Below are positions 1 through 27,147 of a stretch of DNA of 34,660 bases, one piece after another. The DNA lies in assembly GCA_944390225.1 (NCBI GenBank), contig CALXPB010000009.1, forward strand, positions 1-34,660, given 5' to 3'. Under the pieces are notes generated by a model that had not been told where the DNA came from, did not search any database, and saw only the letters and a list, made by a program, of their open reading frames with translations. This stretch comes from an uncultured Alphaproteobacteria bacterium (GTDB lineage Bacteria; Pseudomonadota; Alphaproteobacteria; Rs-D84). Made by a program: the position numbers and the translations under genes. Positions within the stretch are counted from its first letter, which is position 1. The number at the start of each line of letters is the position of its first letter.

Positions 1-1456
1 CACGATAAAACCCGTCATTACATACCCAAGGACAATCATTACCACCCGGCGAACCGGCACCCGTGTAATACGAGTTCTCGGGTCCGTTAGTACAAGATTT
101 ACTGTATGTGTAGTAAACTATTCCGTTAAGAATTTTTGCTACATCCAAGTAATACCCAGTATTCGCTGAATACCAATATTTAGTCGCGGTTGTGTAATCT
201 AATGGATATTTTGAACCGTCGTAGTCCTGGCTTCTGAATATCATATACTCACCTTCTGTGGTAGAAACATAAATATATAATACGTAACAGTTTGATATAC
301 TTGACGCGTTTGTTTCTGGCGATGTATATGTATAACTATATTTGATAAAATTATGTCCTTTTGGCGGATTATCCAATGTTTTTCCAAGAATCACCTCAGG
401 ACATTCATAACGGATATTATTATTACAATAAACCCCGTAATCAACACAACTACTACATAATTTACCATTCAGATAATACCCGTCAAAACATTTAATCTCT
501 GTACTGCCGGCAGGGCAATTCGAATTATTGGGACAAACCGTGCAACTAGTCCCATTATTATAATATCCTGCAATACATTCAAAATCTTCCGCACTGCTAC
601 AAGTGGAATTTTCAACACACTTTGTACATATACCACCTGAATCATAACAACCCGAATTACACTTTGGCGCAGTTCCACAATCATCTTGTGCATAAGTCAG
701 ACAACGTCCGTCATCGTGTTTGTACAGGCCGTCTGGACAAACTATTTCTTCTATCTTACCCCCAGGACATACAACATCGTCATCACACTTCGTACAACTG
801 CCACCTGTACGATAATATCCTGATGCACAATAGTTATATACATTAGAACTTGTAGATTCCCCCAATGGACAATAGTATCCCATTGGACAAGATTTGCAAC
901 CTGCTCCCGTTTCATTATAATATCCCTCTTCGCATTTATATTCTGTTGTTCCTGGTGGACAATATTGATTAGTAGAACATTTATAACATCCGTGAGTTGA
1001 ACTTTTATAATAACCTGCGGCACAACTTATAAGGGTTTCACCGTCACATACATGACCTGAACAAGAAAAACATTGTGGGGTATTATCTTGATAAATCTGT
1101 TTATAATACCCGTCCTTACAACGAAAATACTCATTACCACCGGCACAAGTTGCGTTCTCTGGACATGCGTTACACGATTTGCCGTCATCATAAAAACCGC
1201 TTAAACAACTGTAATCTTCTGCACTGGTACATGTTGCATTTTCTACACTGCACTTTGTGCATACGCCACCGCTGTTATACCAACCGTCATTACACACGAA
1301 CTTTACACCGTCATCACAAGATGCATTTGCAGGGCAAGTATAGCAATATTGACCGTCGGTATATTGCCCGACATCACAAACAACCGCATTTGCAGAAAAA
1401 AACGGCATAAAAATAAATATGAATAAAGCCAAAATTCTCCGCATTTGCACCGACAT
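1..1456 (-). CDS. Secreted cysteine-rich repeat protein, 3' end cut by window edge
   Basis: 485 codons are open from the start at 1456 to the left edge, so the C-terminus is missing. Residues 1-24 form a signal peptide (MRRILALFIFIF, then SANA), so the protein is exported. The rest is packed with Cys pairs in units like C-x-x-G-Y-Y-x(n)-G-x-C-x-x-C, resembling EGF-like or growth-factor-receptor-type repeats. Residues 55-117 and 266-327 are clearly an internal duplication (both carry GG-[VI]-CTKC, a -TC[TS]SAED- stretch and a final -DGYY). Residues ~355-455 are a Tyr-rich, Cys-poor segment, after which CPWVCNDGFY restarts the repeat. The start is uncertain: AGGGGG lies only 2 bases before the ATG at 1456, 8 before an in-frame GTG at 1450 and 14 before the ATG at 1444. 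A surface or adhesin role is inference; no specific function is recognised. Confidence 0.85.
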   Translation of the reverse strand, partial: MSVQMRRILALFIFIFMPFFSANAVVCDVGQYTDGQYCYTCPANASCDDGVKFVCNDGWYNSGGVCTKCSVENATCTSAEDYSCLSGFYDDGKSCNACPENATCAGGNEYFRCKDGYYKQIYQDNTPQCFSCSGHVCDGETLISCAAGYYKSSTHGCYKCSTNQYCPPGTTEYKCEEGYYNETGAGCKSCPMGYYCPLGESTSSNVYNYCASGYYRTGGSCTKCDDDVVCPGGKIEEIVCPDGLYKHDDGRCLTYAQDDCGTAPKCNSGCYDSGGICTKCVENSTCSSAEDFECIAGYYNNGTSCTVCPNNSNCPAGSTEIKCFDGYYLNGKLCSSCVDYGVYCNNNIRYECPEVILGKTLDNPPKGHNFIKYSYTYTSPETNASSISNCYVLYIYVSTTEGEYMIFRSQDYDGSKYPLDYTTATKYWYSANTGYYLDVAKILNGIVYYTYSKSCTNGPENSYYTGAGSPGGNDCPWVCNDGFYR

Positions 1457-3285: not shown

Positions 3286-4626
3286 TTACCAAGACATACT
3301 TTTATATGTTTTCTTATTGACCGTATCACCAAACATATTCTTTTGTTTCTGAGTCAATGTTTCGTATTGCTCTAAAGATATCATGCGCAAAACGAACCCT
3401 TCCTCGTCGCGTTGCGAAAGAACCGGTAAAATGCGTTGCTCGGACACACCGTTATCGCGTAGAACTTGCTCTACAATTGCCAATCTGCGTGCCGCCAATT
3501 TTTTTTCGTCTGAATTACGAGTCGCGCTTTCCGGTATAGATATTTGTATCGCGCGCGTAGGATTACTAACTATGATACTGGCATACTCGGACAACAAAGT
3601 ATAATTAGCACGTGATAACGCAGAATCATCATTACGGAATTTTATCTTTATTTCTAACGGACGAATGTCGTTTGTTTCAGATAGATCGCGTGATGAAGTA
3701 AAACCTTCTATATTCGTCGTCATATCACTGGCAACATCAAACCTGTCATCTATTTGAAAAGTAGATAAATGCTTATTTTCTGATAAAAATGTTTTTCTAA
3801 ATGCTTTGCGTAATTCAGTCGGGCTCATCTTTGTCATATCCTCGCGCACAGACATTATCCGAGGCGATTCCGCTTTTTCTATTGCACGAACAACCACATC
3901 TTCTTCCATAGGCACAACCAAACGACTTAATTTTATATCCTCTTCGTTACGTACATAATCATCTGAACTTTTCTTAGAAAACTTATTTTCAGAATTATAA
4001 GATTTATTTACCGCAACTTCTTGAACCGGAGCAAAATTTTTCTGTACGCTTTCTTCTGCACGACGCTGTAATTCATTAAGCCTTGCAATTCGTGCCTCTA
4101 TTTCAGACAAAGCACTATCTATACCTTCAGTTTTTACTGAGTTAACAGTGTTTTCTGACACGGCATTACGCGCAACTATTGCACGACCAGACGTACCATC
4201 TAAACTTTCTTCGGGTAATTCAAAGTCAGATTTTATAACTGAAAATTCCTCTGGCTGAGGCAAACGTAAAGGCGCATCGTTTTGTGCCCATAAATCATAA
4301 CTTGGTCTACGAGGAACCAGAACATCATTTCCTGCAACAATTTTGTCGCCATTGTCTTTTTGAACGTTGATGTTTTTATTAACACTTTTGGTTGACGCCG
4401 TTCGCGCAACAACCGAACGACCTGATTTATTATCATTCTTACCGGCATTTGAAACAACCTCTGCATTACTCTGTGAGGTTTTCTTTACAGGTTGAACGAT
4501 AGGCTCTCCGAAAGCGGCACGAGCAGAAACACCACCCGCAGCAAGATTTACAACTGGCAACCGTGCATCCGCAAACGCGGGTAATATCAAAAACATTGCC
4601 AATACAGAAATTTTTATCTGTCGCAT
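3286..4626 (-). CDS. Secreted protein with degenerate OmpA-like C-terminal domain
   Basis: 446 residues. Residues 1-22 are a signal peptide ending PAFADA. The middle is low-complexity and charged, with two R-x-(V/I)-V-x-R motifs (GRSVVAR at 69-75, GRAIVAR at 147-153) and a short coiled-coil-like stretch near 170-195. Residues ~324-415 resemble an OmpA/MotB peptidoglycan-binding domain: a strand with IKIKFRNDDSALS, a helix, a strand with IQISIPES, then KLAARRLAIVEQVLRDNGVSEQRI, like the LSxRRAxxVxxxLxxxGVxxxRI segment of OmpA. The usual Asp in the GHTD-like loop is not visible, so peptidoglycan binding may be altered. The start has a strong GGAAGGAAAGGAAA tract. It lies 70 bases after murG and before comF, consistent with an envelope role. 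Confidence 0.75.
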   Translation of the reverse strand: MRQIKISVLAMFLILPAFADARLPVVNLAAGGVSARAAFGEPIVQPVKKTSQSNAEVVSNAGKNDNKSGRSVVARTASTKSVNKNINVQKDNGDKIVAGNDVLVPRRPSYDLWAQNDAPLRLPQPEEFSVIKSDFELPEESLDGTSGRAIVARNAVSENTVNSVKTEGIDSALSEIEARIARLNELQRRAEESVQKNFAPVQEVAVNKSYNSENKFSKKSSDDYVRNEEDIKLSRLVVPMEEDVVVRAIEKAESPRIMSVREDMTKMSPTELRKAFRKTFLSENKHLSTFQIDDRFDVASDMTTNIEGFTSSRDLSETNDIRPLEIKIKFRNDDSALSRANYTLLSEYASIIVSNPTRAIQISIPESATRNSDEKKLAARRLAIVEQVLRDNGVSEQRILPVLSQRDEEGFVLRMISLEQYETLTQKQKNMFGDTVNKKTYKSMSW

Positions 4627-8432: not shown

Positions 8433-10472
8433 TTAGAATACCCCACCGACAACAGGTCCAGACTCTTTTGCTTTAACCGCTGGTGCAGGATTTGGTTTCT
8501 GCCCTTGTTTAAACGCTTCTGTAATTATTACGCCATTCGGATCCTCGGTTGCGGCAGCACCACTGCGACGGTTAACTCGAACAAAAGTCATTCCATCTGG
8601 AACTGCAAAAGGTTGATCTTTTTCGTTTGCCAGCGCAACTTTCATAAAATCTGCAAAAACACGTGCAGCCATATGACTACCGGCACCCTTACCCAACGGA
8701 GTCGGTGTATCAAATCCCAGATAAACACCGGCAATTAAATTCTTTGAAAAACCAACAAACCAGACATCTTTTACATCGTTTGTCGTACCAGTCTTACCGG
8801 CAATAGTATGTCCAGGGACGCGCGCTTGCCTGCCAGTTCCTCTTTCAACAGTACCCTGTAAAATAGAGACTATTTGATACAGGCTTTGAGAATCTGACAA
8901 AGGTTCCGTCCCAACCTCTTCTTCCATAGGTAATAGGCCGTCATACCAATCTATCATTTCTGTCTTCTGTCCTCCCAGAACACGACCGTAACGATCTTCT
9001 ATATAATCTACTAATTTCGGCTGAATTAAATGACCACCATTTACAAATGCGGAATATCCCTGAACAAGACGTAATAAAGTGGTTTCTCCGGACCCCAAAG
9101 CCAGTGATAAATTAATATTTTGCAAATCATCTGGATAAACACCGAAACGTTGTGCAGCCTCTATTGCGTTTTCTACACCAATCTGCTGAACAAGACGAAC
9201 GGCAGGAACATTTCTGGATGTTTCCAACGCCAATCTTAACGGGACTTCCCCTAAGAATTTTCTATCATAATTTTCGGGTTTCCAAAGCGAGTTATCTTCA
9301 CGCAAACCAACAATTGGTGCATCTAAAATCATTGCTTCTGGCGACATACCTCTTTCTAATGCAGCCAAATAAACAAAAGGTTTTATCGTACTACCTATCT
9401 GACGCATGGCCTGCGTTGCACGATTAAACGAACTTTCAGAAAAAGACCTACCGCCAGCCATCGCCAAAACATGACCAGTATGTGGGTTCATCGCAATTAT
9501 TGCCCCCTGTAATTTCTCAGTGCGCCCCTCATTATAACTATCCAACTCCTTATTTAATGCCGCACTGGCAGCCCTCTGAAACTCTGGAACTATGGTTGTC
9601 TTTATATACAAACCTTCATTATACAAAGTTTCTCTACCCAAACTTTCCAGCAATTGACGACGTACATCTTCTGCAAAATATTGAAAATCTTCTTCCATCT
9701 GAGCAGTAAAACCGCTATTTATATTCAGCGGTTCCGCAGCCGCCTCGTTTGCCTGTGCCTGCGTTATAAAACCTTCTTCAACCATACGACGCAGAACATA
9801 ATTTCTACGTTCTACTGCCCGTTCCCTGTTATTAGGTGCTTTTGGTAAAGATGCAAGAAAAGCGCATTCTGCTAAACTTAATTCCGAAACAGGTTTATTA
9901 AAATACATCAACGCGGCAGAACCTACCCCGTATGCACGCGCCCCTAAAAATATCTGATTTAAATATAAAGTCATTATATGTTGCTTTGAAAAAGTACGTT
10001 CTAACCGCAGTGCAAGTATTGCTTCTTTTATTTTACGAGAAATCGTACGCTCTGACGTCAGAAAAAAATTCTTCGCAACCTGTTGCGTTATAGTCGAAGC
10101 ACCAGAAAAATGAGTATCAAAACCGAATAAACGCATACCATTGTTTATCAGAGCACGCGTTATTCCTTGGACGTCTATACCCGGATGAGTCCAGAAATTT
10201 TGATCTTCGGCCGCAACAAACGCGTTTATTAATTGCGGTGGCATATCAGAAAAATCTATAAAAACGCGTCGTTCTTCGGCATATTCAATAAGCAAACTAC
10301 CGTCTGACGCATACAACCTTGTTGCAACAGGCGGAGCATATGTTGCCAATTTCTTATAATCTGGTAAATCATTACCATAAATTAAAACTAATCCCGCCAA
10401 AGCGGCTATACCCGCCGTAAAGCACCAAAATAATGTATTAAGTAAAACGCGTAATATCTTTTTAAATTTCAT
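8433..10472 (-). CDS. mrcA: Class A penicillin-binding protein 1A (glycosyltransferase/transpeptidase)
   Basis: 679 residues. One N-terminal membrane segment (~10-32) is followed by a GT51 domain with AEDQNFWTHPGID (catalytic Glu89), TQQVAKNFFLTSERTISRK and LYLNQIFLGARAYGVGSAA. The transpeptidase domain has GSTIKPF (active Ser, SxxK) near 360, SRN in LETSRNVPAVRL, and KTGTTNDVKDVWFVGF near 560. It polymerises and cross-links peptidoglycan in the periplasm. It is somewhat shorter than the ~850 residues of E. coli PBP1A. A candidate small RNA lies just upstream on the same strand. The C-terminal tail is Pro/Ala/Lys-rich. Confidence 0.95.
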   Translation of the reverse strand: MKFKKILRVLLNTLFWCFTAGIAALAGLVLIYGNDLPDYKKLATYAPPVATRLYASDGSLLIEYAEERRVFIDFSDMPPQLINAFVAAEDQNFWTHPGIDVQGITRALINNGMRLFGFDTHFSGASTITQQVAKNFFLTSERTISRKIKEAILALRLERTFSKQHIMTLYLNQIFLGARAYGVGSAALMYFNKPVSELSLAECAFLASLPKAPNNRERAVERRNYVLRRMVEEGFITQAQANEAAAEPLNINSGFTAQMEEDFQYFAEDVRRQLLESLGRETLYNEGLYIKTTIVPEFQRAASAALNKELDSYNEGRTEKLQGAIIAMNPHTGHVLAMAGGRSFSESSFNRATQAMRQIGSTIKPFVYLAALERGMSPEAMILDAPIVGLREDNSLWKPENYDRKFLGEVPLRLALETSRNVPAVRLVQQIGVENAIEAAQRFGVYPDDLQNINLSLALGSGETTLLRLVQGYSAFVNGGHLIQPKLVDYIEDRYGRVLGGQKTEMIDWYDGLLPMEEEVGTEPLSDSQSLYQIVSILQGTVERGTGRQARVPGHTIAGKTGTTNDVKDVWFVGFSKNLIAGVYLGFDTPTPLGKGAGSHMAARVFADFMKVALANEKDQPFAVPDGMTFVRVNRRSGAAATEDPNGVIITEAFKQGQKPNPAPAVKAKESGPVVGGVF

Positions 10473-12339: not shown

Positions 12340-13629
12340 TTATTTTTTTAGTGAGTCGTACAGTTTTGTAAGGCTTTTCCACATTGTTTTCATATCTTTT
12401 TTTACATTTTCATAAAAATCTGTAGGAATGATGTCAGCAAATAAGGTTTTTACCAGAACAGGTATCATCGACATAAACATCGCAATAAACAGCCCCATTA
12501 AAACTATTGTTATAAGGCTATCATTTCTCATCATAAGGCCGTCCATTAAAAAGGTCGAATCATTCTGTAATAAAGCAAGTTGTAACCTGGACGTTCCTTC
12601 AAATTTACCGAAAACAGCGTTTAAAAACATTATAGAAAAACTTACAAAAACACCGACCAAGGCTATACCGACGGTTCCTTTTACGACGTCATTTATTATT
12701 TCTTGTATATTTTTACCACCGTCTGGGAAAATAGACCCGTTGTCGTTTGACCACCCCTTAAACAACCAAGACAGCATCATAAAAGGCAACATTATTAAAT
12801 CCATCGACAGTTTTATCAAAACTTCTAAGAAATATATCGGTATAGGTACTAACGCCAATAAAAATAATACAAAAATAAGCAACCCAGCAAAGAAAATGGG
12901 AACATTTGGAAAAATAGGAATATCCCACATAATCTTATGTTTATATTCATCATTAAACGCCATATTAAGCATAGTCCAACCGACAGTCATACCAAGCCCT
13001 GTCATTTGATGAACATTCGCAATTTCACAAGCAAGATTATGTCTTAATTTCGGTGAAAACGCCTCCTTGGGATTAACAGAAGCCGATTCGGCAATAGCGG
13101 TTGCAACGGTACATTTTGCAAAATCATCATTTCCTGCTACGGCTCTATTTAAAGATAGCCCCACATTAAAAACAGGTTCTACAACTATATCCGTTAATAA
13201 CCTTGGCAACGGTATCACCAACAAAGCCCCGACAAATGCCAGTTTTATTAAATGGACCCCAAAAAAACTTGTCAGATTCCAAGGCTCTTCAATTTTAGCG
13301 TTAAAAAATCCTGAAAACAGTTTCCAAGCAAACCACACTATCGTAAGGGTTACCGCAACTGGAATTATAAAACTACCTATTGCGCTATATGCACGTGGCA
13401 ATAAACCAGACATTGCAGAAATGATTTCTGAAAACATCTGACAAGACCAACAACTTGAAAAAAAGTTTAACGCGTCTTGAATATTAACAGGTGCCATATT
13501 TCTGTATATAGAAAAACCAGAAATCAGACCTATACCTATGGCAAGTTTTATGACAAACGGCGCAACAGCCCCAGCAGAAAGGGGAAGAAAAGATAAAAAA
13601 ATTATCCAAAACTTTTTTAACCTGCTCAT
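12340..13629 (-). CDS. VirB6/TrbL-like polytopic membrane protein (paralogue 1)
   Basis: 429 residues from the ATG at 13629. A signal-like helix (1-23) is followed by a periplasmic segment with CWSC (C60, C63), then about six further membrane helices. Hallmarks shared with the four plus-strand neighbours are VVEPVFNVGLSLNRAV (the P-x4-G/A-x3-S-x-x-[IV]-like motif), a loop with two Cys about 30 apart, and a lysine-rich cytoplasmic tail with a Trp (TMWKSLTKLYDSLKK). This topology resembles VirB6/TrbL channel subunits of type IV secretion, but I see no VirB4, VirB8-11 or VirD4 partner. In-frame starts exist at 13647 and 13656; the ATG at 13629 is preferred because TGGTATACT ends 8 bases before it and the signal peptide begins there. 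Confidence 0.72.
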   Translation of the reverse strand: MSRLKKFWIIFLSFLPLSAGAVAPFVIKLAIGIGLISGFSIYRNMAPVNIQDALNFFSSCWSCQMFSEIISAMSGLLPRAYSAIGSFIIPVAVTLTIVWFAWKLFSGFFNAKIEEPWNLTSFFGVHLIKLAFVGALLVIPLPRLLTDIVVEPVFNVGLSLNRAVAGNDDFAKCTVATAIAESASVNPKEAFSPKLRHNLACEIANVHQMTGLGMTVGWTMLNMAFNDEYKHKIMWDIPIFPNVPIFFAGLLIFVLFLLALVPIPIYFLEVLIKLSMDLIMLPFMMLSWLFKGWSNDNGSIFPDGGKNIQEIINDVVKGTVGIALVGVFVSFSIMFLNAVFGKFEGTSRLQLALLQNDSTFLMDGLMMRNDSLITIVLMGLFIAMFMSMIPVLVKTLFADIIPTDFYENVKKDMKTMWKSLTKLYDSLKK

Positions 13630-13637
13630 TGTTTTTA

Positions 13638-13646
13638 AGTATACCA
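13638..13646 (-). promoter_or_regulatory. Extended -10 promoter, minus-strand paralogue
   Basis: TGGTATACT on the minus strand, 8 bases before the ATG at 13629, predicts a leaderless mRNA. It lies back to back with a TATAAT at 13666-13671 facing the plus-strand operon, so this gap is probably a bidirectional promoter for the whole paralogue cluster. Confidence 0.5.
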
Positions 13647-13665
13647 TATTTTGCAATAAATGTGA

Positions 13666-13671
13666 TATAAT
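13666..13671 (+). promoter_or_regulatory. -10 box of the four-gene VirB6-like operon
   Basis: TGATATAAT (TG at 13663-13664, hexamer at 13666-13671) precedes the ATG at 13695 by 23 bases. Transcription from near 13678 would leave a leader of about 17 bases containing a weak GCGAG site. No good -35 is seen. Confidence 0.4.
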
Positions 13672-13694
13672 TGATAATAAATTTATAAGCGAGA

Positions 13695-14990
13695 ATGTAT
13701 TTTATTAAAAATAATATTTTTAATTTATTAAAACGCGTAATTACATTGATGGTAATTACGGGATTGTTTTTATCACCTATCCCTGCTTGTGCTAATATTG
13801 TAGATGCTTTAAATCTTGCTCCTGTTATTCCTACAATTCTGGACGCTTTTATGACGGTTGCAACCGGCAGCTATGAATTTTTTGTCGGCAACGGAACAGG
13901 TATAATTTATATATTCATTTGGGGGTTTTTAATAATTTCTTTGTCTTTATACCTCTTAAAAATGTATTTTCCAAAAAACTGGCTATCCTTTTTCGGTTTT
14001 TCTGGCGGTGGCGAAATTGCCGAAGGAAAAGCAGACGCAATGACAATAAGTGCAAATGTACTGAAACCGATTATTCGTGCTTTAATTGCTGCTGTGGTAT
14101 TATTGCAAATAAGACCAGTTTATTTGACGGAATTTTTAGTTAACCCTTTTTTACAGTTTGGTTCGTTGTATACAGAAAGCATCATCAGCTCCATAAACGA
14201 AGTGGGAATAAAAGCAGAAAAAATAGAATGCCCGCCTTCAATAACTGAAAAAGGGTGGCTAACGGAATCCAGTTGCGAATTTATGGTTCAACCCGTTGCA
14301 GACCTTTCACATGCAAACAACCAAATTATCAAACGCGGATTTGATTTTCTGAAACGTGGGTTACGCGGATTAATGACACTTATCCCACACGGTGGTGAAA
14401 ATTTTCTTAATATAATAACAGGAATTTTTCTTATCGTCACATTCGTATCAAGTAATTTATTTATGGCTCTTCTTATTATTCAGGCAATCTTTAACTTTGG
14501 CATGTCTTTAATTTTATACCCCTTTCAAGTTTTAGTATATGTTGCGAAACCTAATGAAAAATGGTTTGATATTTGGCCTGCTTTTTCCGGCGTTACAAAA
14601 GCACTACAACAAATGATAATCACTATGATTGCGTGTGCTATTATTCTTTTTGTAAACATATCAATAATAAAATCTTTATTTCAGTGGAACTCGTCTGTAT
14701 TTGTAATAGCTGCAAATGGAAGCGCGTCTTCTAATGTACCCCAAACCGTATCAAACGTTAGCGGTTTCGGCGAACATTCTATTTTATGGTTGTCATCAAT
14801 ATTAACCTTTTACTTGATGTTTAATATATTTAACATGGCCCGCGAACAATTAAATAAATACACCGGAAAAGGAATGGATAGCCTATATAAACAAACCATA
14901 GAAGATACAAAAACAATCTGGGAAAGCGCAAAAACACAGCACAAAAAAATAAAAGAAATAAAAGAACTTATAGGCAAAGAAAAAAACTGA
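13695..14990 (+). CDS. VirB6/TrbL-like polytopic membrane protein (paralogue 2)
   Basis: 431 residues. A signal peptide ends about residue 33 (SPIPACA). Several membrane helices follow, then LVNPFLQFGSLYTESI, the motif shared by all five paralogues, and two loop Cys (CPPSITEK and SSCEFMV). The tail is hydrophilic, Lys-rich and Trp-containing (YKQTIEDTKTIWESAK). It lacks the N-terminal CxxC of paralogues 1, 3 and 4. It is the first gene of an operon; the next starts 12 bases downstream. A VirB6/TrbL-type inner-membrane role is inferred from topology and tandem arrangement; sequence similarity is low. Confidence 0.7.
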   Translation: MYFIKNNIFNLLKRVITLMVITGLFLSPIPACANIVDALNLAPVIPTILDAFMTVATGSYEFFVGNGTGIIYIFIWGFLIISLSLYLLKMYFPKNWLSFFGFSGGGEIAEGKADAMTISANVLKPIIRALIAAVVLLQIRPVYLTEFLVNPFLQFGSLYTESIISSINEVGIKAEKIECPPSITEKGWLTESSCEFMVQPVADLSHANNQIIKRGFDFLKRGLRGLMTLIPHGGENFLNIITGIFLIVTFVSSNLFMALLIIQAIFNFGMSLILYPFQVLVYVAKPNEKWFDIWPAFSGVTKALQQMIITMIACAIILFVNISIIKSLFQWNSSVFVIAANGSASSNVPQTVSNVSGFGEHSILWLSSILTFYLMFNIFNMAREQLNKYTGKGMDSLYKQTIEDTKTIWESAKTQHKKIKEIKELIGKEKN

Positions 14991-15002
14991 TGAATTAATA
15001 AA

Positions 15003-16220
15003 ATGAATAACCTTCTTGACACTTTTGTAGAAAATAACATGCAGTGTTGGAGCTGTCCTATATTTGATCGCCTGTTTCAAATAGTTTCTGAAGCAGCAAG
15101 TGCCGTCTATAATCAATTTGTAATATTATGTGCGATTTTATTCTGCGTTTTATTTGCTTTCTTCGTAATCAACGCAGTTTGGCAGAATTTTAAAAACGAC
15201 CAAAAAGACCCTTTGTATCAGAAATCTATAAAACCAGTAATTATAAACTCACTATTCGCATTAACTTTTCTAAGCATGGGTGTATATTTACCACGTTTCA
15301 TAACCACCATAACTTTTGAACCGGCAGCAGAAATAGCGTTAATTTACTCCCAAAGTATACTAAGAACAGATAATCAAAAAGTAAATAAACTGGTACATTA
15401 TAAACAGAACGAAATTTCAGAATCTGGATTTTATCGCCCGCAATTACGCGATACTATAATTATGCTTATGAAGACGACGATTACACAATTTCAGTCTTAC
15501 ATAAAACTCGGAATTTCTGTAATGGATAAAGCGTTTTCTTTAAGCGCATTAAAAAGTATCAGTGCATTTATCAAACATATAACTTTATTCCTTATCGGAT
15601 TATACCTTGCGTATGCATTCTTTAAATTATTTCTTAAATTCTGTTTTTATTTCGTAGATATAATTGTCGCAATGACCTTTTTTGCATTCTTTTTTCCTCT
15701 GTCTTTGATGTTAGTATCTTTCAAAGGTGCAGATAGTCTGCCATCTTGGATTTCATCTTTGGGTAAAAATATCGGAACAAAGCAATTTAAAGATTTAATA
15801 AACGCAATTATTACTCTTGCCGTAGCAGTTTTAACATATACGGTAATTACGGTTATAATTTCTAAATTCTTTCTACCTGGGCAATCTGTAGAAGAAATTA
15901 TGACAATGATTACAAGCGGTGATATATTCGCAATCGATTTATCAGAAGAAAACCTTTTTGATTATACATTAGTTGAATGTATAATTTTAGTATATGTATT
16001 AAATTTCATATATGATCAAATTCCGAATGTTACTTCTATGGTACTTCAAACATTTGGGGTATCAGAGAAAAAAGAAATGGGAGAAGAACTGGCAAATTCC
16101 GCAATGCAGTTGACTAAATCTACTGTTAATCTGACAGTAAAAGTCGGGCAAAGCATACTAACTAGTAAAGACTCGGGAAAAGACGATACGAAAGATAAGA
16201 AAGAAGAAGATAATAAATGA
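15003..16220 (+). CDS. VirB6/TrbL-like polytopic membrane protein (paralogue 3)
   Basis: 405 residues. There is no classical signal peptide; it starts almost at the CxxC (MQCWSCPIFDRLF, C15 and C18), the same motif as CWSCQMF in paralogue 1. Membrane helices occupy ~40-60, 80-100, 185-240 and the C-terminal half. TFEPAAEIALIYSQSI is the shared motif, but the downstream Cys pair of the other paralogues is missing. The last ~35 residues are acidic/basic and cytoplasmic (SGKDDTKDKKEEDNK). No obvious Shine-Dalgarno site is present. Its stop overlaps the next start by 4 bases (ATGA), indicating translational coupling. Confidence 0.7.
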   Translation: MNNLLDTFVENNMQCWSCPIFDRLFQIVSEAASAVYNQFVILCAILFCVLFAFFVINAVWQNFKNDQKDPLYQKSIKPVIINSLFALTFLSMGVYLPRFITTITFEPAAEIALIYSQSILRTDNQKVNKLVHYKQNEISESGFYRPQLRDTIIMLMKTTITQFQSYIKLGISVMDKAFSLSALKSISAFIKHITLFLIGLYLAYAFFKLFLKFCFYFVDIIVAMTFFAFFFPLSLMLVSFKGADSLPSWISSLGKNIGTKQFKDLINAIITLAVAVLTYTVITVIISKFFLPGQSVEEIMTMITSGDIFAIDLSEENLFDYTLVECIILVYVLNFIYDQIPNVTSMVLQTFGVSEKKEMGEELANSAMQLTKSTVNLTVKVGQSILTSKDSGKDDTKDKKEEDNK

Positions 16221-17656
16221 AAGCAAAACTTATAATGCTTGGGATACGTATCATAATGGGTGCAATTGCGCTTGGTATCGGCATATGGTATTTGTCTTCT
16301 TCTATAAACGGCGACGCAATAACCTATACCAGCATGGACGGATTCATGAAAGCAATTGGGGTAACGAATGGCGACATTGCCACTGCGAACGGTTGCTTTA
16401 TGTGCGGTTATGTATCAGAACTATTTGGTGTTATAAGCCGAGCGACAGAAATGTTCTGGACTGCGATGGTTGATAATATTTGGATACTAATGGCACTAGG
16501 TTTTGGGTTATACCTTTTCATTCACACGGCAAAATACCTTTTTAACACAAGCAAAAAAAACGCAGCGTTTGACGAAAAAGAAAACAATTTAAGTTTCAAA
16601 GAATGGTTTGACCCAATCTGGCGACAAGCAGCAAGAGTCATGATTGTCGGGGCAATGATGGGTGCACTGGGGCTGGGTGGGACCACTGCTTTAAGAACAG
16701 TAGCAAATATTACGATTACACCCGTTCTTTTTGTCGGGGCAGAATTATCTATGGCAGCAACAGGGGTTTCTGATGCGGCAAGTTGCGGTGCACTGGATAC
16801 AGTAAATACCGACGATAATTTATTAAACCCGATTTTACAACCATTTATGTGCGTAATAGGTAATATAAATAGCGTTATGCTGGCCGGTGCTGCGGGTGGT
16901 TTTTCATTGATGAACTATGCTTGGCTTGGTATGGGAGGCGGGGTATTTACATGGCTGGCGGGGCTTGGTCTTGTCATAATGTTTCTAATAATCGGGTTTA
17001 ATTTATTCTTTCAGTTTTTATCCGTCATATTTAAATTGGTTTTCTTAATCATTTTTTTACCTCTTATATTGGCTGCGACCGCTTTTGAAAAAACATGGAA
17101 ACTTGCAGAAAATGTTTTAAAAAACGCTGTCAATAAAATATTAGTAAAATCTGCTGTTCAAATTATCGGCATAACATTAAAGACAATAATAATATACGCA
17201 ACAGTTTCCTTTGTTGCGGACGAGTTTTTTCCTGGGCCAAACGACAATTACAGCGCAATTCTACCGCCTATGCTGGGGCAAACAGTAGAAAATCCTGATG
17301 CTCAAACGCTGTCCGTAATAAACGTATTTTCTGAATGCGAGAAAGTGGCATTAATAGACGGTAAAATTGATGCCGATAAATTCAAACCGTGTTTTACGGC
17401 CAAAAGAGCAGAAGTAGAAAGGAAATATCCAGGTGCATTTGATTTTATGGCCGACGGTTGGGACTTCTTATTAATGATGTTAGGTTTATTTCTTGTATAT
17501 TTTTATGTGGTCAGCCCAAAAATCGACGAAATTCTTGGAAAAGACAGTCCAGAAGAATTTGACTTTGGCGGTTGGCTAAAAGATTTAGGTAAGAAAGTTT
17601 GGGGTTTCCCGAGACAAATATTCGGGGCAGTATCAAAAGCGTTTGGAAAAAAATAA
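16217..17656 (+). CDS. VirB6/TrbL-like polytopic membrane protein (paralogue 4)
   Basis: 479 residues, the longest of the five. A first helix (~5-28) is followed by a short periplasmic part with GCFMCGYVSELF (C60 and C63, the same positions as in paralogue 1). Further helices flank TITPVLFVGAELSMAA, the shared motif, and a Cys-bounded loop (CGALDTVN to FMCVIGN). A glycine-rich helix region (LAGAAGGFSLM, GMGGGVFTWLAGLG) and a late periplasmic loop with two Cys (FSECEKVAL, KPCFTAK) are unique to it. The tail is basic with KKVWGFPRQIFGAVSKAFGKK. It overlaps paralogue 3 and ends 3 bases before paralogue 5. Confidence 0.7.
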   Translation: MKAKLIMLGIRIIMGAIALGIGIWYLSSSINGDAITYTSMDGFMKAIGVTNGDIATANGCFMCGYVSELFGVISRATEMFWTAMVDNIWILMALGFGLYLFIHTAKYLFNTSKKNAAFDEKENNLSFKEWFDPIWRQAARVMIVGAMMGALGLGGTTALRTVANITITPVLFVGAELSMAATGVSDAASCGALDTVNTDDNLLNPILQPFMCVIGNINSVMLAGAAGGFSLMNYAWLGMGGGVFTWLAGLGLVIMFLIIGFNLFFQFLSVIFKLVFLIIFLPLILAATAFEKTWKLAENVLKNAVNKILVKSAVQIIGITLKTIIIYATVSFVADEFFPGPNDNYSAILPPMLGQTVENPDAQTLSVINVFSECEKVALIDGKIDADKFKPCFTAKRAEVERKYPGAFDFMADGWDFLLMMLGLFLVYFYVVSPKIDEILGKDSPEEFDFGGWLKDLGKKVWGFPRQIFGAVSKAFGKK

Positions 17657-17659
17657 TAT

Positions 17660-18958
17660 ATGAAAGTATGTAAATGGATTTTATCAAAAATTATGATATG
17701 TATTACGGCATTTCTGCTTGTAATTCCGGCATACTCTGCAACAAATTTACCTATGTCTGAAATCGGTGATTATGGAACATGGTTAACAGAAACAAATAAC
17801 GAATTATTTACAACAAAAATAAAAAATGACTTAACAGAATTTCAATCGACTTTTCAAGCGAACCAACTTGTAAAAGACTATGTCCCAATAGAAGCAAAAG
17901 TCGGGTTAGCATTAATGAACGCATTATCAAATGTCGGAGAAATCTTAAAAGAATCTTTGGTACGCTTCATCATAATATTTATTATAATTGCGTATATATT
18001 TTGGATCACGTTTGAAGCATATAACATGATAAAAAATGGTAGCAGTGCAATGGAACTGGGCGAAAACTTGGCCAAGAAAGGTTTCGTAATTGCTATCTGG
18101 ATTATAATTCTTACTCAGGATCCTGCAAAAGTTTTTATGTGGGTAGTAAGTCCCATAATAAGACTGGGCTCGTATTTATCAGACTTGATTTTAAATTCAG
18201 TTGCAAACTTTTCCGGCGCGAAAATACCCGATACATGTGCCGCAATTCACGAATATGCCGTTGCACACACTTCTAGTAATATGTTGGTTGACGCAAACAC
18301 AGCCGCAGATATTCTCTGTGTTCCGACACGATTGTCTGGTTTCTTTTATACGGCAGTCTCTGCCGGTTGGCACTGGGTCATAGCAGGAATAGGAAGAAGC
18401 GGTCTTACTATATTAGTAGGTATTATCTTTATATACATATTTATAAAGAACATTTGGAAGTTTGCTTTAATGGCACTGGGGGTAATTACTGATTTATTCC
18501 TGTCCATATTATTATTACCTTTTACAGCAATTGCCGAAACGCTTGGTCAAACATCTTATAAAGGAGTTGCAGGAGATATATTTAACAGTTTTCTTGGTGT
18601 TTTTAATGCGAAATCTTTTTCCTTATCAAACCAGATTCAGAAATTCGTACAAGCAACGATTTATTTCGTATCTCTTTCTATTGTTATAGCAATATGCGCT
18701 GCTTTGCTTTCCGGAGTAGTTGGTACAAATCTTGCCGCAGAAGTTCCTACCCTAGAAAATAACGATTTCATTGCGATATTATTAACGGGATGTTTAGTAT
18801 CGCACTTTGCAAATAAAGCAGGAGAAATTGCAAAAGATATGGGCGGAAGCGTAAACGATAGTTTTGGAAATGATTTAAAATCTCATATTACTGGTCTTTG
18901 GAAGAAAACAGTTGGTTACGGTAAAGATTTATGGAAAATAGTCAGAAAGAAAAAATGA
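17660..18958 (+). CDS. VirB6/TrbL-like polytopic membrane protein (paralogue 5)
   Basis: 432 residues. Signal peptide residues 1-27 end PAYSA. The periplasmic segment has no CxxC. Helices follow at ~95-120 and 140-160, then VVSPIIRLGSYLSDLI (shared motif), a Cys pair (TCAAIHEYA and DILCVPTRL), more helices with LLLPFTAIAETL, and the basic Trp-containing tail (GLWKKTVGYGKDLWKIVRKKK). It is the last gene of the operon, starts 3 bases after paralogue 4 without a clear Shine-Dalgarno site, and converges with uvrD 9 bases away without a visible strong terminator. Confidence 0.7.
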   Translation: MKVCKWILSKIMICITAFLLVIPAYSATNLPMSEIGDYGTWLTETNNELFTTKIKNDLTEFQSTFQANQLVKDYVPIEAKVGLALMNALSNVGEILKESLVRFIIIFIIIAYIFWITFEAYNMIKNGSSAMELGENLAKKGFVIAIWIIILTQDPAKVFMWVVSPIIRLGSYLSDLILNSVANFSGAKIPDTCAAIHEYAVAHTSSNMLVDANTAADILCVPTRLSGFFYTAVSAGWHWVIAGIGRSGLTILVGIIFIYIFIKNIWKFALMALGVITDLFLSILLLPFTAIAETLGQTSYKGVAGDIFNSFLGVFNAKSFSLSNQIQKFVQATIYFVSLSIVIAICAALLSGVVGTNLAAEVPTLENNDFIAILLTGCLVSHFANKAGEIAKDMGGSVNDSFGNDLKSHITGLWKKTVGYGKDLWKIVRKKK

Positions 18959-21813: not shown

Positions 21814-24099
21814 TTAATCTTGTGCTACTGGTGGAGTTATAGTTCCAGTTCCAGATCCAACATCTTCTCGGCAAACGCCATTTACATTTGTATAACCCGT
21901 ATTACACACACAAATACCATTTTGATTACGTGTAGAATGCTCTTGACACTCTGGCAAACACTGCGTACCAAATACTTCATAGCCATCAATACATTTACAA
22001 TGTTCATTTACATATCCGTCTTCTGAATACACACCAGAATTTATTACATACACAGAATTTTCTGGACATAATAATGACTGATAAAATACTTCTGAAACCT
22101 TTTGTATACACATATCATCATTATCAGGTGGGCAACTTGTTTGATCATTAGCAAAAACAGCATATGCGCAAGTTAATGCAACATTTCGGCAAGCACCCCT
22201 CATTACATTATATATGCTATTAACGCTTGCACTGGTAGACCATGAATTAATCTGTGTTACCTGCTGATTATAACAAGATGCAATATCCACCATACAACTG
22301 GACGCATAATCAGAAATTATCTTACGCTGTCCCGATTGAATATTTACCATTGCACGTTGTATATAGTTAACGACAACATCGTTATACGGTTTATAATTCC
22401 CGTTTGAATCGTAAGTATAATATTGACATTTATCCAATACGGCACGACATAATCCTTCGTCTGTTACCTTTTGCTTGGTTCCTATTTTCTGTAATAAATA
22501 TTTTGCAACACAAGACCCATCGTTTTTATCTTCCGCACACGTTTGGGTATCCATGCTTACTGTATAAGCATCCTCTAAAAAGCCTGAATTTATCGCTGCG
22601 TTATTATAGTTGGTCATAAAGTCTATTATATTCGTAATATCTTGACCTAAAATGACCTCGCCGTTTTCATCGATATAACGCTTTGTAGGATCCAGACATT
22701 TCGTATAGTCTGTACCGCAAACCATGTCATCTGTCATGCAAGTTTCCAAAGCCCCTATACATCCCCTGGCATCATATTGATTTTTATTCTGTAATACCGC
22801 AAGACGCGCTTTTTGCAACATCAGATTTGCACTACGGACGTTTGAAACCAGAGTTTCATTCATTTTGGTTAAACCCTGTTCATAGGCAATACAATCTTTA
22901 TCAATCGCTAAGTCATAATTACCGGTAATTTGATCAACGTTTGCCCCGACCTCTTTGCATTGCGTCAGAACTGTATTACAACGTTTTTTTGCAGCATTAT
23001 ATAAATCAGTGCCTCGCAAGTTAGAGAAACTGGTCGTATTCGTATTCAAGAAATCTAAACTAAATATATCGGACATTTCCGAAGAAAAGTCCAAATTCAT
23101 ATCCAAACCAGTGTAAGTATTAGAAGAATACGAAGTAGAACTTGTCGGGTCTTTTATTAACTTTTCGATTTCATCCAGCATATTTCGGGTTTCCGTGTTA
23201 TCAACGGCACCAGAAAGAGCCTCTTCCGCTTCGGTTTCATTCATTATCGCCCGAATTTCATCTGCGGACAAACCGACATAACGTATCCTTTGCGCGACCT
23301 CGTTTAATTGAGTATTTGCATCTTTTACAGCATCTTCTACTTTGGTATAATTTGATAAATTTGCAGAGCAAGAACAACGTTTCTGATTAGAGTCAATAAC
23401 CGAGCAGAACTGATCCATACAATCATTATATTGTTGCTGACACGACTGATTTAAATCTGCGGTCTGCTCTAAACGAGTCTTTGCCTGCTCTATCGTCTCA
23501 GAGTTAGTGGTTGTAGTACTACTGGTTGTACGTGCCTGCAATGCCCTAACTTCACTAGCAATATTTGACCCAGTCTGAACGTCCGTTTCCCCTATTGTTG
23601 CGCGACCACCAACCTCTGCCGTAGACGGTCGCAAAGTTAAACCGGCACGACGAACAACAGGGTTATTATTTATACTGGCCTCGCTTACTCTTGCGTTTCT
23701 ACCGACCGTGTTTATAGTTGCTTCTAACTTATCGCGTGCCGTACTTGTTGAACTGGAAACATTCGCTGAACGTGATACAACCCCAGAAGAAACAACATTC
23801 CCAGTTCCACGTCCAGAAGTAGTTAAAGTTTTACTATTATCAACATTCAAAACACGACCGATTGTATTATCTTCACTAGTTTTTTCGGCGACGGAAGAAG
23901 TCGTGCTACGACCAACCACACTTCGTGATGCTTCTGTTGAAACACTGCGTGAACTCGCCGTGGCATTTCGTGAAGTTGCAGTAGTGGATTTTGTACTGTT
24001 ACTAGAAGGCACTACCCTTGATATAGCACCAGTTCCGTCTGCAAAAGCAAACGGCATAAAAAAAGCCATTAAGAAAAAACAAAGCGAAAGTTTTTTCAT
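21814..24099 (-). CDS. Secreted Cys-rich protein with R-x-V-V-x-R repeats (paralogue of the 24952 gene)
   Basis: 761 residues from the ATG at 24099; signal peptide 1-20 (MKKLSLCFFLMAFFMPFAFA). Residues ~25-195 are Ser/Thr/Arg-rich and low-complexity, with SRSVVGR (59-64 region) and GVVSRS (106-111). A Cys core follows (C220, C227, C232, C242, C244), spaced exactly as in the 731-residue paralogue. A mainly helical region with further Cys pairs comes next, then an EGF-like tail (CKCIDGYEV, CVCNTGYTNVNGVC). TGATATAAT ends 10 bases before the ATG; a TTG start at 24126 would overlap this promoter and is rejected. Function unknown; envelope or surface location is inferred from the signal peptide and the Cys content. 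Confidence 0.82.
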   Translation of the reverse strand: MKKLSLCFFLMAFFMPFAFADGTGAISRVVPSSNSTKSTTATSRNATASSRSVSTEASRSVVGRSTTSSVAEKTSEDNTIGRVLNVDNSKTLTTSGRGTGNVVSSGVVSRSANVSSSTSTARDKLEATINTVGRNARVSEASINNNPVVRRAGLTLRPSTAEVGGRATIGETDVQTGSNIASEVRALQARTTSSTTTTNSETIEQAKTRLEQTADLNQSCQQQYNDCMDQFCSVIDSNQKRCSCSANLSNYTKVEDAVKDANTQLNEVAQRIRYVGLSADEIRAIMNETEAEEALSGAVDNTETRNMLDEIEKLIKDPTSSTSYSSNTYTGLDMNLDFSSEMSDIFSLDFLNTNTTSFSNLRGTDLYNAAKKRCNTVLTQCKEVGANVDQITGNYDLAIDKDCIAYEQGLTKMNETLVSNVRSANLMLQKARLAVLQNKNQYDARGCIGALETCMTDDMVCGTDYTKCLDPTKRYIDENGEVILGQDITNIIDFMTNYNNAAINSGFLEDAYTVSMDTQTCAEDKNDGSCVAKYLLQKIGTKQKVTDEGLCRAVLDKCQYYTYDSNGNYKPYNDVVVNYIQRAMVNIQSGQRKIISDYASSCMVDIASCYNQQVTQINSWSTSASVNSIYNVMRGACRNVALTCAYAVFANDQTSCPPDNDDMCIQKVSEVFYQSLLCPENSVYVINSGVYSEDGYVNEHCKCIDGYEVFGTQCLPECQEHSTRNQNGICVCNTGYTNVNGVCREDVGSGTGTITPPVAQD

Positions 24100-24109
24100 C
24101 TTTTTATTA

Positions 24110-24118
24110 ATTATATCA
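24110..24118 (-). promoter_or_regulatory. Extended -10 promoter of the 761-residue secreted protein
   Basis: TGATATAAT on the minus strand, 10 bases before the ATG at 24099, with no Shine-Dalgarno sequence. It lies downstream of the rpmA terminator. Confidence 0.5.
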
Positions 24119-24160
24119 TAACGCAAAAAAACAGAAAAGATTATTTTTTATAAACAACCT

Positions 24161-24951: not shown

Positions 24952-27147
24952 TTAATTTCCTGAAACGGTGCTTGGCGTCCATTCACGTATTGCCTCTACA
25001 CCATTGTTCAACAGGCACTGTTCGCGCAATTCCGCAGAATTACACTTTCCAACATTGGTACCAGTACACAAATCTGAACCAGCACCAACCCCTGTCGCAC
25101 CGTTAACACCGTTCAATATTTCGTTTAACGTCACGATATTACGGCAAGTATTTTGTGTGTAATCCTGACTATTATTACATTGTTCGCTATCTTGTTTGTC
25201 TATAACGGCCTTGAATTGTGCGGTAGACGGATTACATATCATCGTTTCATAACAATGTGGAACGTTCGCAATCTGAGCACAATAAGTCTTTATACGCGCC
25301 TCTGGCCAATTAGGATTAGAAGACGCCTGCGTTTCATAGCAATCATATATTTCACTTAAACATTCATTAAAGTTCGTACCCGCTGAAATTGCTTCGCTAA
25401 GGACAGTTTCTCTTTCTTCCTCTGCAAACTCTAAGCGCTTTTGTTGCAGAGCCTGTTGCGCGGCGACTTTCTGATATCCGATATTCTGCGCAGTTGTACG
25501 CAACTGTTCCCCATAAGCATCACAATCTGCGTTTGCGTCTAATGCATATTTCTGCATAATGCTACGACGCGCATCTGCAACCGGACCACGCAAAGAAGAA
25601 TATGGATCCCCAGACGCCGTTGTATAACCAAAGCAAGTTGCAGAATTAGATGCTGTATATCCTGTATTAGGCTCTATAAAATCTAACTCATATGTTCCTG
25701 TATTAGACACAGAAATATAACTATTATAATTATAAGGACATTGAGAAGCACCATTTCCACACTTACGCCCATTTGACGGTGGTGTTCCGCAGGCCTCGTA
25801 AATACCGTTAAAGCAAGAGTCTAATACGCGATTACATACATTATTGTGCGCATATTCAAATAACTCGTACCCCCACGTTTCTGCCAAAGAATCTTTTAGA
25901 TTTTCAGAATCTGCAAATGCGCCGTCTATACCTGCCAGATTACCGACAACATTGGTTAAATTATCAAACGCACTTAATAAACTATCAGAATCATCAGAAA
26001 TTATTGTCAAAGTTGCTTCTTTGGCATTGGCCCAAGACTGTAAAGATGCCAATATATCACTGCCTGTCCCATCTAAAGAAGAAACATCAAAGCCGAAATT
26101 ATTACCAGATTCTTTACAGTATGACGGAGGTGTATTATGACTGCAAGTACCGTCAAATATAGCATGTTGTTCGCACCAATCACCGAAATCAGCCTCCGAA
26201 GCGGTACCGTTTTCACTGGCTTCTTGCCAAGATACGCAGTTCATAACTTTTTCTGCGTCTGTTAATTGGAACGCCTCGCTAACGTCCTTACCTTTTGTAG
26301 CAATTAACAAAGCCAATTCGCCAGACACTTTTATCAATTCTTCGTTCGCCGTTTCCAAAGCGGATTCCGCTTCTGCAAAAGCCTTTACACGACCAGCGCA
26401 AGCGCAACGACGTTGTGCGGAATTACGCGCGGTACAAATTTCATCCATGCAAGCATAATAAGACTCTAAACAATTATTATACGCGTCCGAAGAAATTAAT
26501 CCCGTTGTAGAATCAATGATATTAGAATAATTACCTGTATACAGTTTATTTGACAGGTATGTATAAGTATTAGAATTTATAGCCGCTTTACTACCTCTAA
26601 TTGCACTACCTTGCAGGGAGACGCGTGACGGAGTTGTAGTTGTACGAGAACGAACCGTACGATTATTATTAACCGCCACCCGAGAGGTTGTATTTGCAGT
26701 GCTACGAGATACAACATTTCTGCTTGTATTTCCGGTTACCGTTGCCGTTTCACGAGAAACCGTAGTACTTGGTCGGGCACTGGCAGTCGCAGCAACACGT
26801 GAAGTGCTAGTTGTCGTAGGCGTAGAAGTTGCCGTTCTGGTTACAGCGTTTGTTGTTGCCGTCCGAGAAACAACTGCCCGAGAGTTAGTCGTAGTAGTTC
26901 CAGAAGCAGGTCTTGCCACTGTATTATTTGACGTTTCACGCGTCGTTACCGGACGCGATGACGCACGCGGAGAAGCGCTGGTACGCGCAGATTGCGTTGT
27001 TGCAACGGACGCCTGCATTGGTGCAATTGGATCTGCCAGCACGGAACGCATCGATAAAAGCGTAGAACAAACAAAAAAAGCACCTGCCAGTAAGAAAACT
27101 GTTCCAATAGCGTTTTTACAACAATCTGTAAAATTACGGCTTTTCAT
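24952..27147 (-). CDS. Secreted Cys-rich protein with long Ser/Thr/Arg repeat region
   Basis: 731 residues. A hydrophobic export signal spans ~13-38 (VFLLAGAFFVCSTLL to VLA). Residues ~45-190 are almost only Ser, Thr, Ala, Arg, Val and Asn, with SRAVVSRT (89-96), SRNVVSRS (142-149) and several SRVA/TVSR variants. The Cys core (C226, C233, C238, C248, C250) has the same spacing (7, 5, 10, 2) as the paralogue at 21814, with the shared pattern CMDE.C and RRCAC. A helical, coiled-coil-prone segment (QQALQQKRLEFAEEERETV) and many scattered Cys follow. AGGAGAG lies 6 bases before the ATG. Upstream is a 29-bp dyad that may be an operator. Role unknown. Confidence 0.82.
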   Translation of the reverse strand: MKSRNFTDCCKNAIGTVFLLAGAFFVCSTLLSMRSVLADPIAPMQASVATTQSARTSASPRASSRPVTTRETSNNTVARPASGTTTTNSRAVVSRTATTNAVTRTATSTPTTTSTSRVAATASARPSTTVSRETATVTGNTSRNVVSRSTANTTSRVAVNNNRTVRSRTTTTPSRVSLQGSAIRGSKAAINSNTYTYLSNKLYTGNYSNIIDSTTGLISSDAYNNCLESYYACMDEICTARNSAQRRCACAGRVKAFAEAESALETANEELIKVSGELALLIATKGKDVSEAFQLTDAEKVMNCVSWQEASENGTASEADFGDWCEQHAIFDGTCSHNTPPSYCKESGNNFGFDVSSLDGTGSDILASLQSWANAKEATLTIISDDSDSLLSAFDNLTNVVGNLAGIDGAFADSENLKDSLAETWGYELFEYAHNNVCNRVLDSCFNGIYEACGTPPSNGRKCGNGASQCPYNYNSYISVSNTGTYELDFIEPNTGYTASNSATCFGYTTASGDPYSSLRGPVADARRSIMQKYALDANADCDAYGEQLRTTAQNIGYQKVAAQQALQQKRLEFAEEERETVLSEAISAGTNFNECLSEIYDCYETQASSNPNWPEARIKTYCAQIANVPHCYETMICNPSTAQFKAVIDKQDSEQCNNSQDYTQNTCRNIVTLNEILNGVNGATGVGAGSDLCTGTNVGKCNSAELREQCLLNNGVEAIREWTPSTVSGN

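Follow-up and report, generated by a model that had tools for sequence, protein, structure and literature searches.

The closest described counterpart of the locus analysed here is the rvh type IV secretion system (T4SS) of Rickettsia, which has five RvhB6 proteins that are about 80% diverged and whose genes lie in islets around the genome (PMC2653234). Its hallmarks are duplicated VirB4, VirB8 and VirB9, multicopy VirB6 and the lack of VirB5 (PMC11077975). Anaplasma phagocytophilum has four VirB6 genes, which are co-transcribed and all made as protein (PMC7648143). In the R388 system VirB6 (TrwI) is a pentamer with five VirB2 sites (PMC9259494): it has two inner-membrane helices and forms the stalk base at which five pilins are recruited and assembled (PMC9259494, PMC12624023).

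We analysed a window of 34,660 nucleotides which makes up the entire contig C9; the genome assembly comprises 0.94 Mb in 26 contigs and is 96% complete. The source organism belongs to the Candidatus Enterousia group, small-genome gut Alphaproteobacteria that a 2025 paper, following GTDB, puts in the order Rs-D84 (PMC12306168) and that the NCBI taxonomy lists as Alphaproteobacteria incertae sedis, outside any named order. An array of five polytopic open reading frames occupies positions 12340-18958 (VirB6a to VirB6e; Table 1). We conclude that these are five old, non-interchangeable VirB6 homologues which very probably form the stalk, spanning inner membrane and periplasm, of a complete, dispersed P-type (rvh-like) T4SS of the Candidatus Enterousia/Rs-D84 lineage.

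The initial annotation had described five tandem genes for polytopic proteins of 405-479 residues. The reading frames are verified, and b to e do lie on one strand, with a gap of 12 bases between b and c, a 4-base overlap in which the start of d lies over the stop of c, and a gap of 3 bases between d and e; but a is on the minus strand, divergent from the others rather than head-to-tail with them. The region between the divergent genes a and b is overlapped by promoter-like sites on both strands, in a number not above chance. The neighbours of the array, named by eye from their translations, are housekeeping genes: MurG, FtsW, MraY, a penicillin-binding protein, UvrD/PcrA, L21/L27 and PPDK.

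Elsewhere in the window are three exported-looking proteins, one of them OmpA-like and two Cys-rich, which have in common the sequence [SG]R-x-[VI]V-x-R (SRSVVGR, SRAVVSR, SRNVVSR, GRSVVAR and GRAIVAR), possibly a processing or sorting signal of the lineage. A further Cys-rich repeat protein (CPxxAxC / GxY) with a signal peptide is cut by the contig end.

Table 1 Coordinates of the array, its motifs and the other genes discussed. Positions refer to the window unless a contig (C) or locus (L) of the analysis is given.
Feature	Position	Strand	Remarks
VirB6a	12340..13656	-	438 aa as called; translation probably begins at codon 10, a Met conserved in the genus alignment (~13629); best PDB match of AlphaFold model is R388 TrwI/VirB6
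VirB6b	13695..14990	+	431 aa; genus alignment and profile links
VirB6c	15003..16220	+	405 aa; genus alignment and profile links
VirB6d	16217..17656	+	479 aa; genus alignments, profile link, fold match to R388 VirB6
VirB6e	17660..18958	+	432 aa; genus alignment and profile link
CxxC of VirB6a (CWSC, residues 69-72)	13441..13452	-	Invariant, 48 alignment rows
CxxC of VirB6c (CWSC, residues 15-18)	15045..15056	+	Both Cys invariant, 32 alignment rows
CxxC of VirB6d (CFMC, residues 60-63)	16394..16405	+	Invariant, 46 alignment rows
a/b intergenic region	13630..13694	.	Between divergent genes
Exported-looking protein	3286-4626	-	
Exported-looking protein	21814-24126	-	
Exported-looking protein	24952-27147	-	
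Cys-rich repeat protein	2-1456	-	
VirB3 and VirB4, adjacent	C2:97.4-100.1 kb		
Exported repeat protein, 1757 aa	L032 12264-17537	+	This genome
VirB8, VirB9 and VirB10	C8:22.3-27.1 kb		
VirB9 with SPOR domain	L090 7044-8594	+	This genome
VirD4	C2:21.1-23.3 kb		
VirB11-type ATPase	C4:5.8-6.8 kb		331 aa
Second VirB8-like gene and neighbour, tandem pair	C4:33.0-34.3 kb (L257 6987-8329)	-	PF04335 matches the first only
Three successive ORFs preceding VirB9, G059	L258 2554-5149	+	By eye
Position-5 VirB6-like protein with M23 domain, G071	L036 2539-5499	-	
Three-gene unit beside array	L161 13777-17630	+	
Three-gene unit beside array	L036 12821-16646	+	
Three-gene unit beside array	L246 about 9010-9474	-	

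A Pfam and NCBIfam search of the five proteins returned no family match at a meaningful level; weak matches to PF14967 and a HATPase model were taken as noise. PF04610, the VirB6/TrbL model (curated cut-off 25.9 bits), matched none of the window proteins and, at E 0.001, nothing in the genome. Among relatives it matched array position 4 of genome G069 at 19.5 bits, under the cut-off, and outgroup arrays at up to 33.7 bits (genome search of G097).

Profile-profile comparison connects the five to one another: the E-values were 3e-13 for a-c, 8e-11 for b-e, 8e-7 for a-e, 1e-6 for a-d, 3e-6 for c-d, 2e-5 for c-e, 4e-5 for d-e, 1e-4 for a-b and 1e-3 for b-c, with b-d the sole pair of the ten to give no signal, and reversed-profile controls for the paralogue pairs gave E 0.009 to 0.6 (no better than 0.015 for the five strongest pairs). 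BLAST within genus members also recovers several links between paralogues. Each of the five also matches position-specific profiles built from the order's other families (E ~1e-13 to 5e-41): VirB6c matches array position 3 (E 3e-26), VirB6d position 4 (E 5e-41) and VirB6e position 5 (E 7e-20), while VirB6b ties between positions 2 and 1 (E ~1e-13 to 1e-12) and VirB6a between positions 1 and 5. The order-level position profiles in turn match the outgroup arrays (E 1e-23 to 3e-31), and these match a canonical TrbL profile, from an alignment built by iterative HMM, at E 1e-7. Direct profile comparison of the five with canonical TrbL was weak, with a best E of 0.008. We do not file the five as PF04610 matches; the chain of profiles is what identifies them as homologues.

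AlphaFold models of VirB6a (mean pLDDT 73.7, pTM 0.64) and VirB6d (mean pLDDT 64.5) were compared with solved structures. The best match of VirB6a is R388 TrwI/VirB6 (8rt9_F; Z 14.3, 264 of 272 residues), with DotA (9ngy), Legionella's equivalent of VirB6, fourth at Z 8.9 and the best unrelated row at 7.4. VirB6d matches R388 VirB6 at Z 12.8 (267 of 268 residues), 12.7 and 12.2, with the next row at 7.8; helical bundles may reach Z 13 by chance, but the matches of both models cover almost the entire R388 protein and stand well clear of the other rows, which disfavours that reading. Foldseek also places R388 VirB6 first for both models, at E 0.016 and 0.088, values which are not significant alone. 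The predicted VirB6 fold of a and d is therefore based on rank and coverage and on the distance to unrelated rows. The five had initially been called VirB6/TrbL-like paralogues, and both parts of that call hold: the profile links, judged against their reversed controls, support homology among the five, and proteins 1 and 4, the two modelled, both match R388 TrwI/VirB6 best. All five are supported as diverged VirB6 homologues, by profiles for the five and by fold for two.

The same proteins had been credited with a common motif, P-x4-(G/A)-x3-S. Its P-x4-(G/A) part stands: the prolines of all five fall in one alignment column, which is Pro in 70 of 78 VirB6-like rows, and the Pro is invariant within each of the five genus alignments. 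The trailing Ser is not common to all five, and that part of the motif is lost. The CxxC seen in proteins 1, 3 and 4 is verified and is invariant or near-invariant in the genus; that of VirB6a shares an alignment column with those of c and d, and in the models of a and d it is found where the VirB6 domain's first long helix begins (H70-118 in a). The CxxC had been thought unusual, but it is found repeatedly in the order and also in PF04610-linked arrays beyond it. Of 50 order and window members, 37 have a CxxC-xx-hydrophobic sequence, versus a mean of 1.7 (maximum 5) in composition shuffles; in arrays outside the order, 8 of 8 have it. A CxxC stands at array position 4 in all nine arrays of other families. 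The CxxC is a recurrent mark of this VirB6 subfamily. Because a Lys-rich segment follows the first long helix, the positive-inside rule suggests that the CxxC faces the periplasm.

A Cys pair in the next loop is likewise confirmed in four proteins and is invariant (C182/C210 in a, C179/C194 in b, C190/C212 in d, C193/C220 in e), and the basic Trp-containing tail ascribed to most of the five is present in four, protein 3 being the one which lacks it. The conserved Trp of the VirB6 cytoplasmic loop was set aside as evidence: an invariant Trp is found nearby in a, b and d, but in different alignment columns.

The five-gene order proved to be kept in related genomes. Among 80 loci of named genomes of the same genus, 70 show the complete order a-,b+,c+,d+,e+, and these are all of the loci that span the array; the remaining 10 are partial subsets in the same order, fitting contig ends. 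VirB6e is present in all 58 same-genus genomes. Nine complete arrays from five other families have exactly five VirB6-like genes each. A tree explains the five positional groups with 7 label changes, where the least possible is 4 and shuffled labels require 42.9. Since the profiles and the tree show positional groups shared across families, the fivefold multiplication most likely took place before the order spread. In the outgroup genome G097, the members of a five-gene array group with members from G078 (SH-aLRT 99). An AU test did not reject that gene 4 of G097 belongs with position 4 (p 0.136), and at that value we do not claim an independent, convergent arrival at five in G097.

Some loci carry additional features. 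In genome G058 the VirB6 genes are present more than once, on small contigs (C5, C16 and C17; L048 and L049), which may reflect a second array or a mixed assembly. Next to the array in families f2 and f4 lies a divergent unit of three genes (about 700, 373 and 190-203 aa), the smallest of which has a homologue on contig C1 of the genome studied here. In G071, an M23 peptidoglycan peptidase domain (PF01551, E 2e-21) is inserted behind the helices of the position-5 VirB6-like protein, which might replace VirB1.

The array had been described as free-standing, with no other secretion genes. This is true of the window and fails for the genome: a search for virB4, virB8-11 and virD4 found virB4, virB8, virB9, virB10, virB11 and virD4, virB3 is also present, and a T4SS with dispersed genes is encoded both here and throughout the order. 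VirB10 was found in 66 of the 79 relatives searched, VirD4 in 72 and VirB4 in 61, counts which include some same-class genomes. PF03135 finds VirB4 once in this genome and in every genus or order genome with a match, and PF03524 finds VirB9 once in each of the 38 genomes it matches, searches that a very diverged second copy could escape; VirB10 is found once per genome. The VirB2 pilin model PF04956 matched nothing in this genome, though in another of the order's families five genomes have matches above cut-off. No VirB5 turned up in the searches directed at other components.

A second PF04335 match in this genome (G000:C4:34060) scores 19.8 bits, under the cut-off, and second VirB8 copies are above that cut-off in several relatives. 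The C4 tandem pair may hold further VirB8 copies, as may three successive single-pass membrane ORFs which precede VirB9 in G059. The VirB9 of this genome has a C-terminal SPOR (peptidoglycan-binding) domain, and the C-terminus of the G059 VirB9 is similar. Just downstream of virB3-virB4 lies a gene for a 1757-aa exported protein with repeats of ~26 residues ('MFxxTFxGCSGLTGEIP'), a candidate surface protein or substrate. The virB3-virB4 pair is on contig C2 and the array on C9, and in G071 they are also on different contigs; in G059 the array is ~6.5 kb from virB8-virB9-virB10.

The system shares with rvh its five tandem, strongly diverged VirB6 proteins (RvhB6a-e in Rickettsia), the scattering of its T4SS genes and extra VirB8 copies: multicopy VirB6 and duplicated VirB8 are the rvh traits present. 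Unlike in rvh, one VirB4 and one VirB9 were detected per genome and the array is away from virB3-virB4, so that duplicated VirB4, duplicated VirB9 and a position of virB6 after virB3-virB4 are the rvh traits not found. Further differences are the inverted gene a of the Enterousia genus, the SPOR domain of VirB9 and the compact size of the Enterousia-genus proteins (405-479 aa, against the large flanking extensions of those of rvh). We take the array's system to work like rvh, but do not file it as a member because VirB4 and VirB9 duplication was not found and the array is apart from virB3-virB4.

R388 TrwI/VirB6 (PDB 7O3V, 8RT9) offers the same fold over nearly the whole R388 protein (Z 12-14 for the models of a and d), and the VirB6 domain of protein c is, as there, preceded by little or no extra sequence. 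R388 differs in using five identical copies together with VirB5, where five different genes are found here; identity is only 9-12%, and the CxxC and loop Cys pair are typical of the array's subfamily. Anaplasma and Ehrlichia, with virB6-1 to virB6-4, also have tandem VirB6 paralogues in a reduced alphaproteobacterium, but these are four genes beside virB3-virB4-1, and VirB6-4 has a very large C-terminal extension (PMC7648143). DotA of the Legionella Dot/Icm system (PDB 9NGY), the fourth fold match of VirB6a, is also a pentamer (PMC12857230), though it is a single large protein of a type IVB system.

We infer that the five act in the encoded T4SS, and propose a topology and assembly for them. 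By analogy with R388, each subunit would put its first two helices in the inner membrane, the rest would build a central stalk above the VirB3/VirB4 complex, and pilin or substrate would be passed along the stalk toward the VirB9/VirB10 outer-membrane core. The multi-subunit conduit that the initial annotation had raised is plausible on this model, as R388 VirB6 is a pentamer (PMC9259494).

How the five would be arranged in such a stalk can be read in more than one way. Tentatively, it could be an obligate heteropentamer with one copy of each paralogue, asymmetric and with five different pilin or substrate sites, the gene count then reflecting the fivefold symmetry. This is the most economical reading since five genes match the C5 symmetry of the VirB6 stalk, and since five distinct paralogues are maintained together, with a tight b-e operon. 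By its title, a 2009 study by Bao et al. reports interaction among the four VirB6 paralogues of Ehrlichia and VirB9, a result in keeping with mixed assemblies. The four paralogues of A. phagocytophilum and Ehrlichia chaffeensis speak against one copy of each, and are a misfit unless one is used twice (PMC7648143). Covariation between paralogues over 54 paired loci gave no specific signal, as the UvrD control scored as high as the VirB6 pairs, and for a, c and d even pairs inside one protein showed no enrichment. Each homologue could instead form its own homopentamer, giving alternative stalks for different substrates, hosts or growth states; we regard this as possible rather than probable. The paralogues are highly diverged and similar only at the profile level, as Rickettsia's five RvhB6 are also highly diverged (PMC2653234), and the divergent orientation of a from b-e means that its expression could be separate. 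The overlap and short gaps of b-c-d-e are rather those of one co-expressed complex, however, and no complete array lacks any of the five genes, in genomes reduced to 0.5-1.1 Mb that have a single VirB4, VirB9 and VirB10.

It is unlikely that only one or two of the five are real VirB6 proteins, with the others derived membrane proteins that serve as substrate adaptors or surface proteins or in peptidoglycan remodelling. Extended VirB6 forms do exist, and the M23 domain of the G071 position-5 protein would suit such a role, but all positions retain the VirB6 core, the P-x4-G/A motif and the Cys features, and although VirB6d is the most conserved of the five, VirB6a also has the predicted VirB6 fold. 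That the proteins are not VirB6 at all, and are unrelated multi-helix transporters or channels whose likeness is one of hydrophobic helices only, is very improbable: the missing Pfam and NCBIfam matches would fit it, but the top fold matches are specific and far above all unrelated helical proteins, the profile chain has its reversed controls, and T4SS genes are co-encoded, with the array linked to virB8-virB10 in G059.

The Rs-D84/Candidatus Enterousia bacteria inhabit the gut, are uncultured and are believed to rely on partner cells (PMC12306168). The paper describing the reduced genomes of Candidatus Enterousia makes no mention of a secretion system (PMC12306168), and none of the literature searched links type IV secretion to Rs-D84, so that a T4SS in this lineage seems not to have been described before in that literature. 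The assignment of the five proteins to the VirB6 family is ordinary; a fixed set of five paralogues across an order is unusual. With a conserved, complete T4SS, the Rs-D84 lineage has a concrete machine for contact. Because exactly five VirB6 lineages are fixed across the order, it becomes testable why VirB6 multiplied in Rickettsia and its relatives, given that the VirB6 of R388 is a homopentamer.
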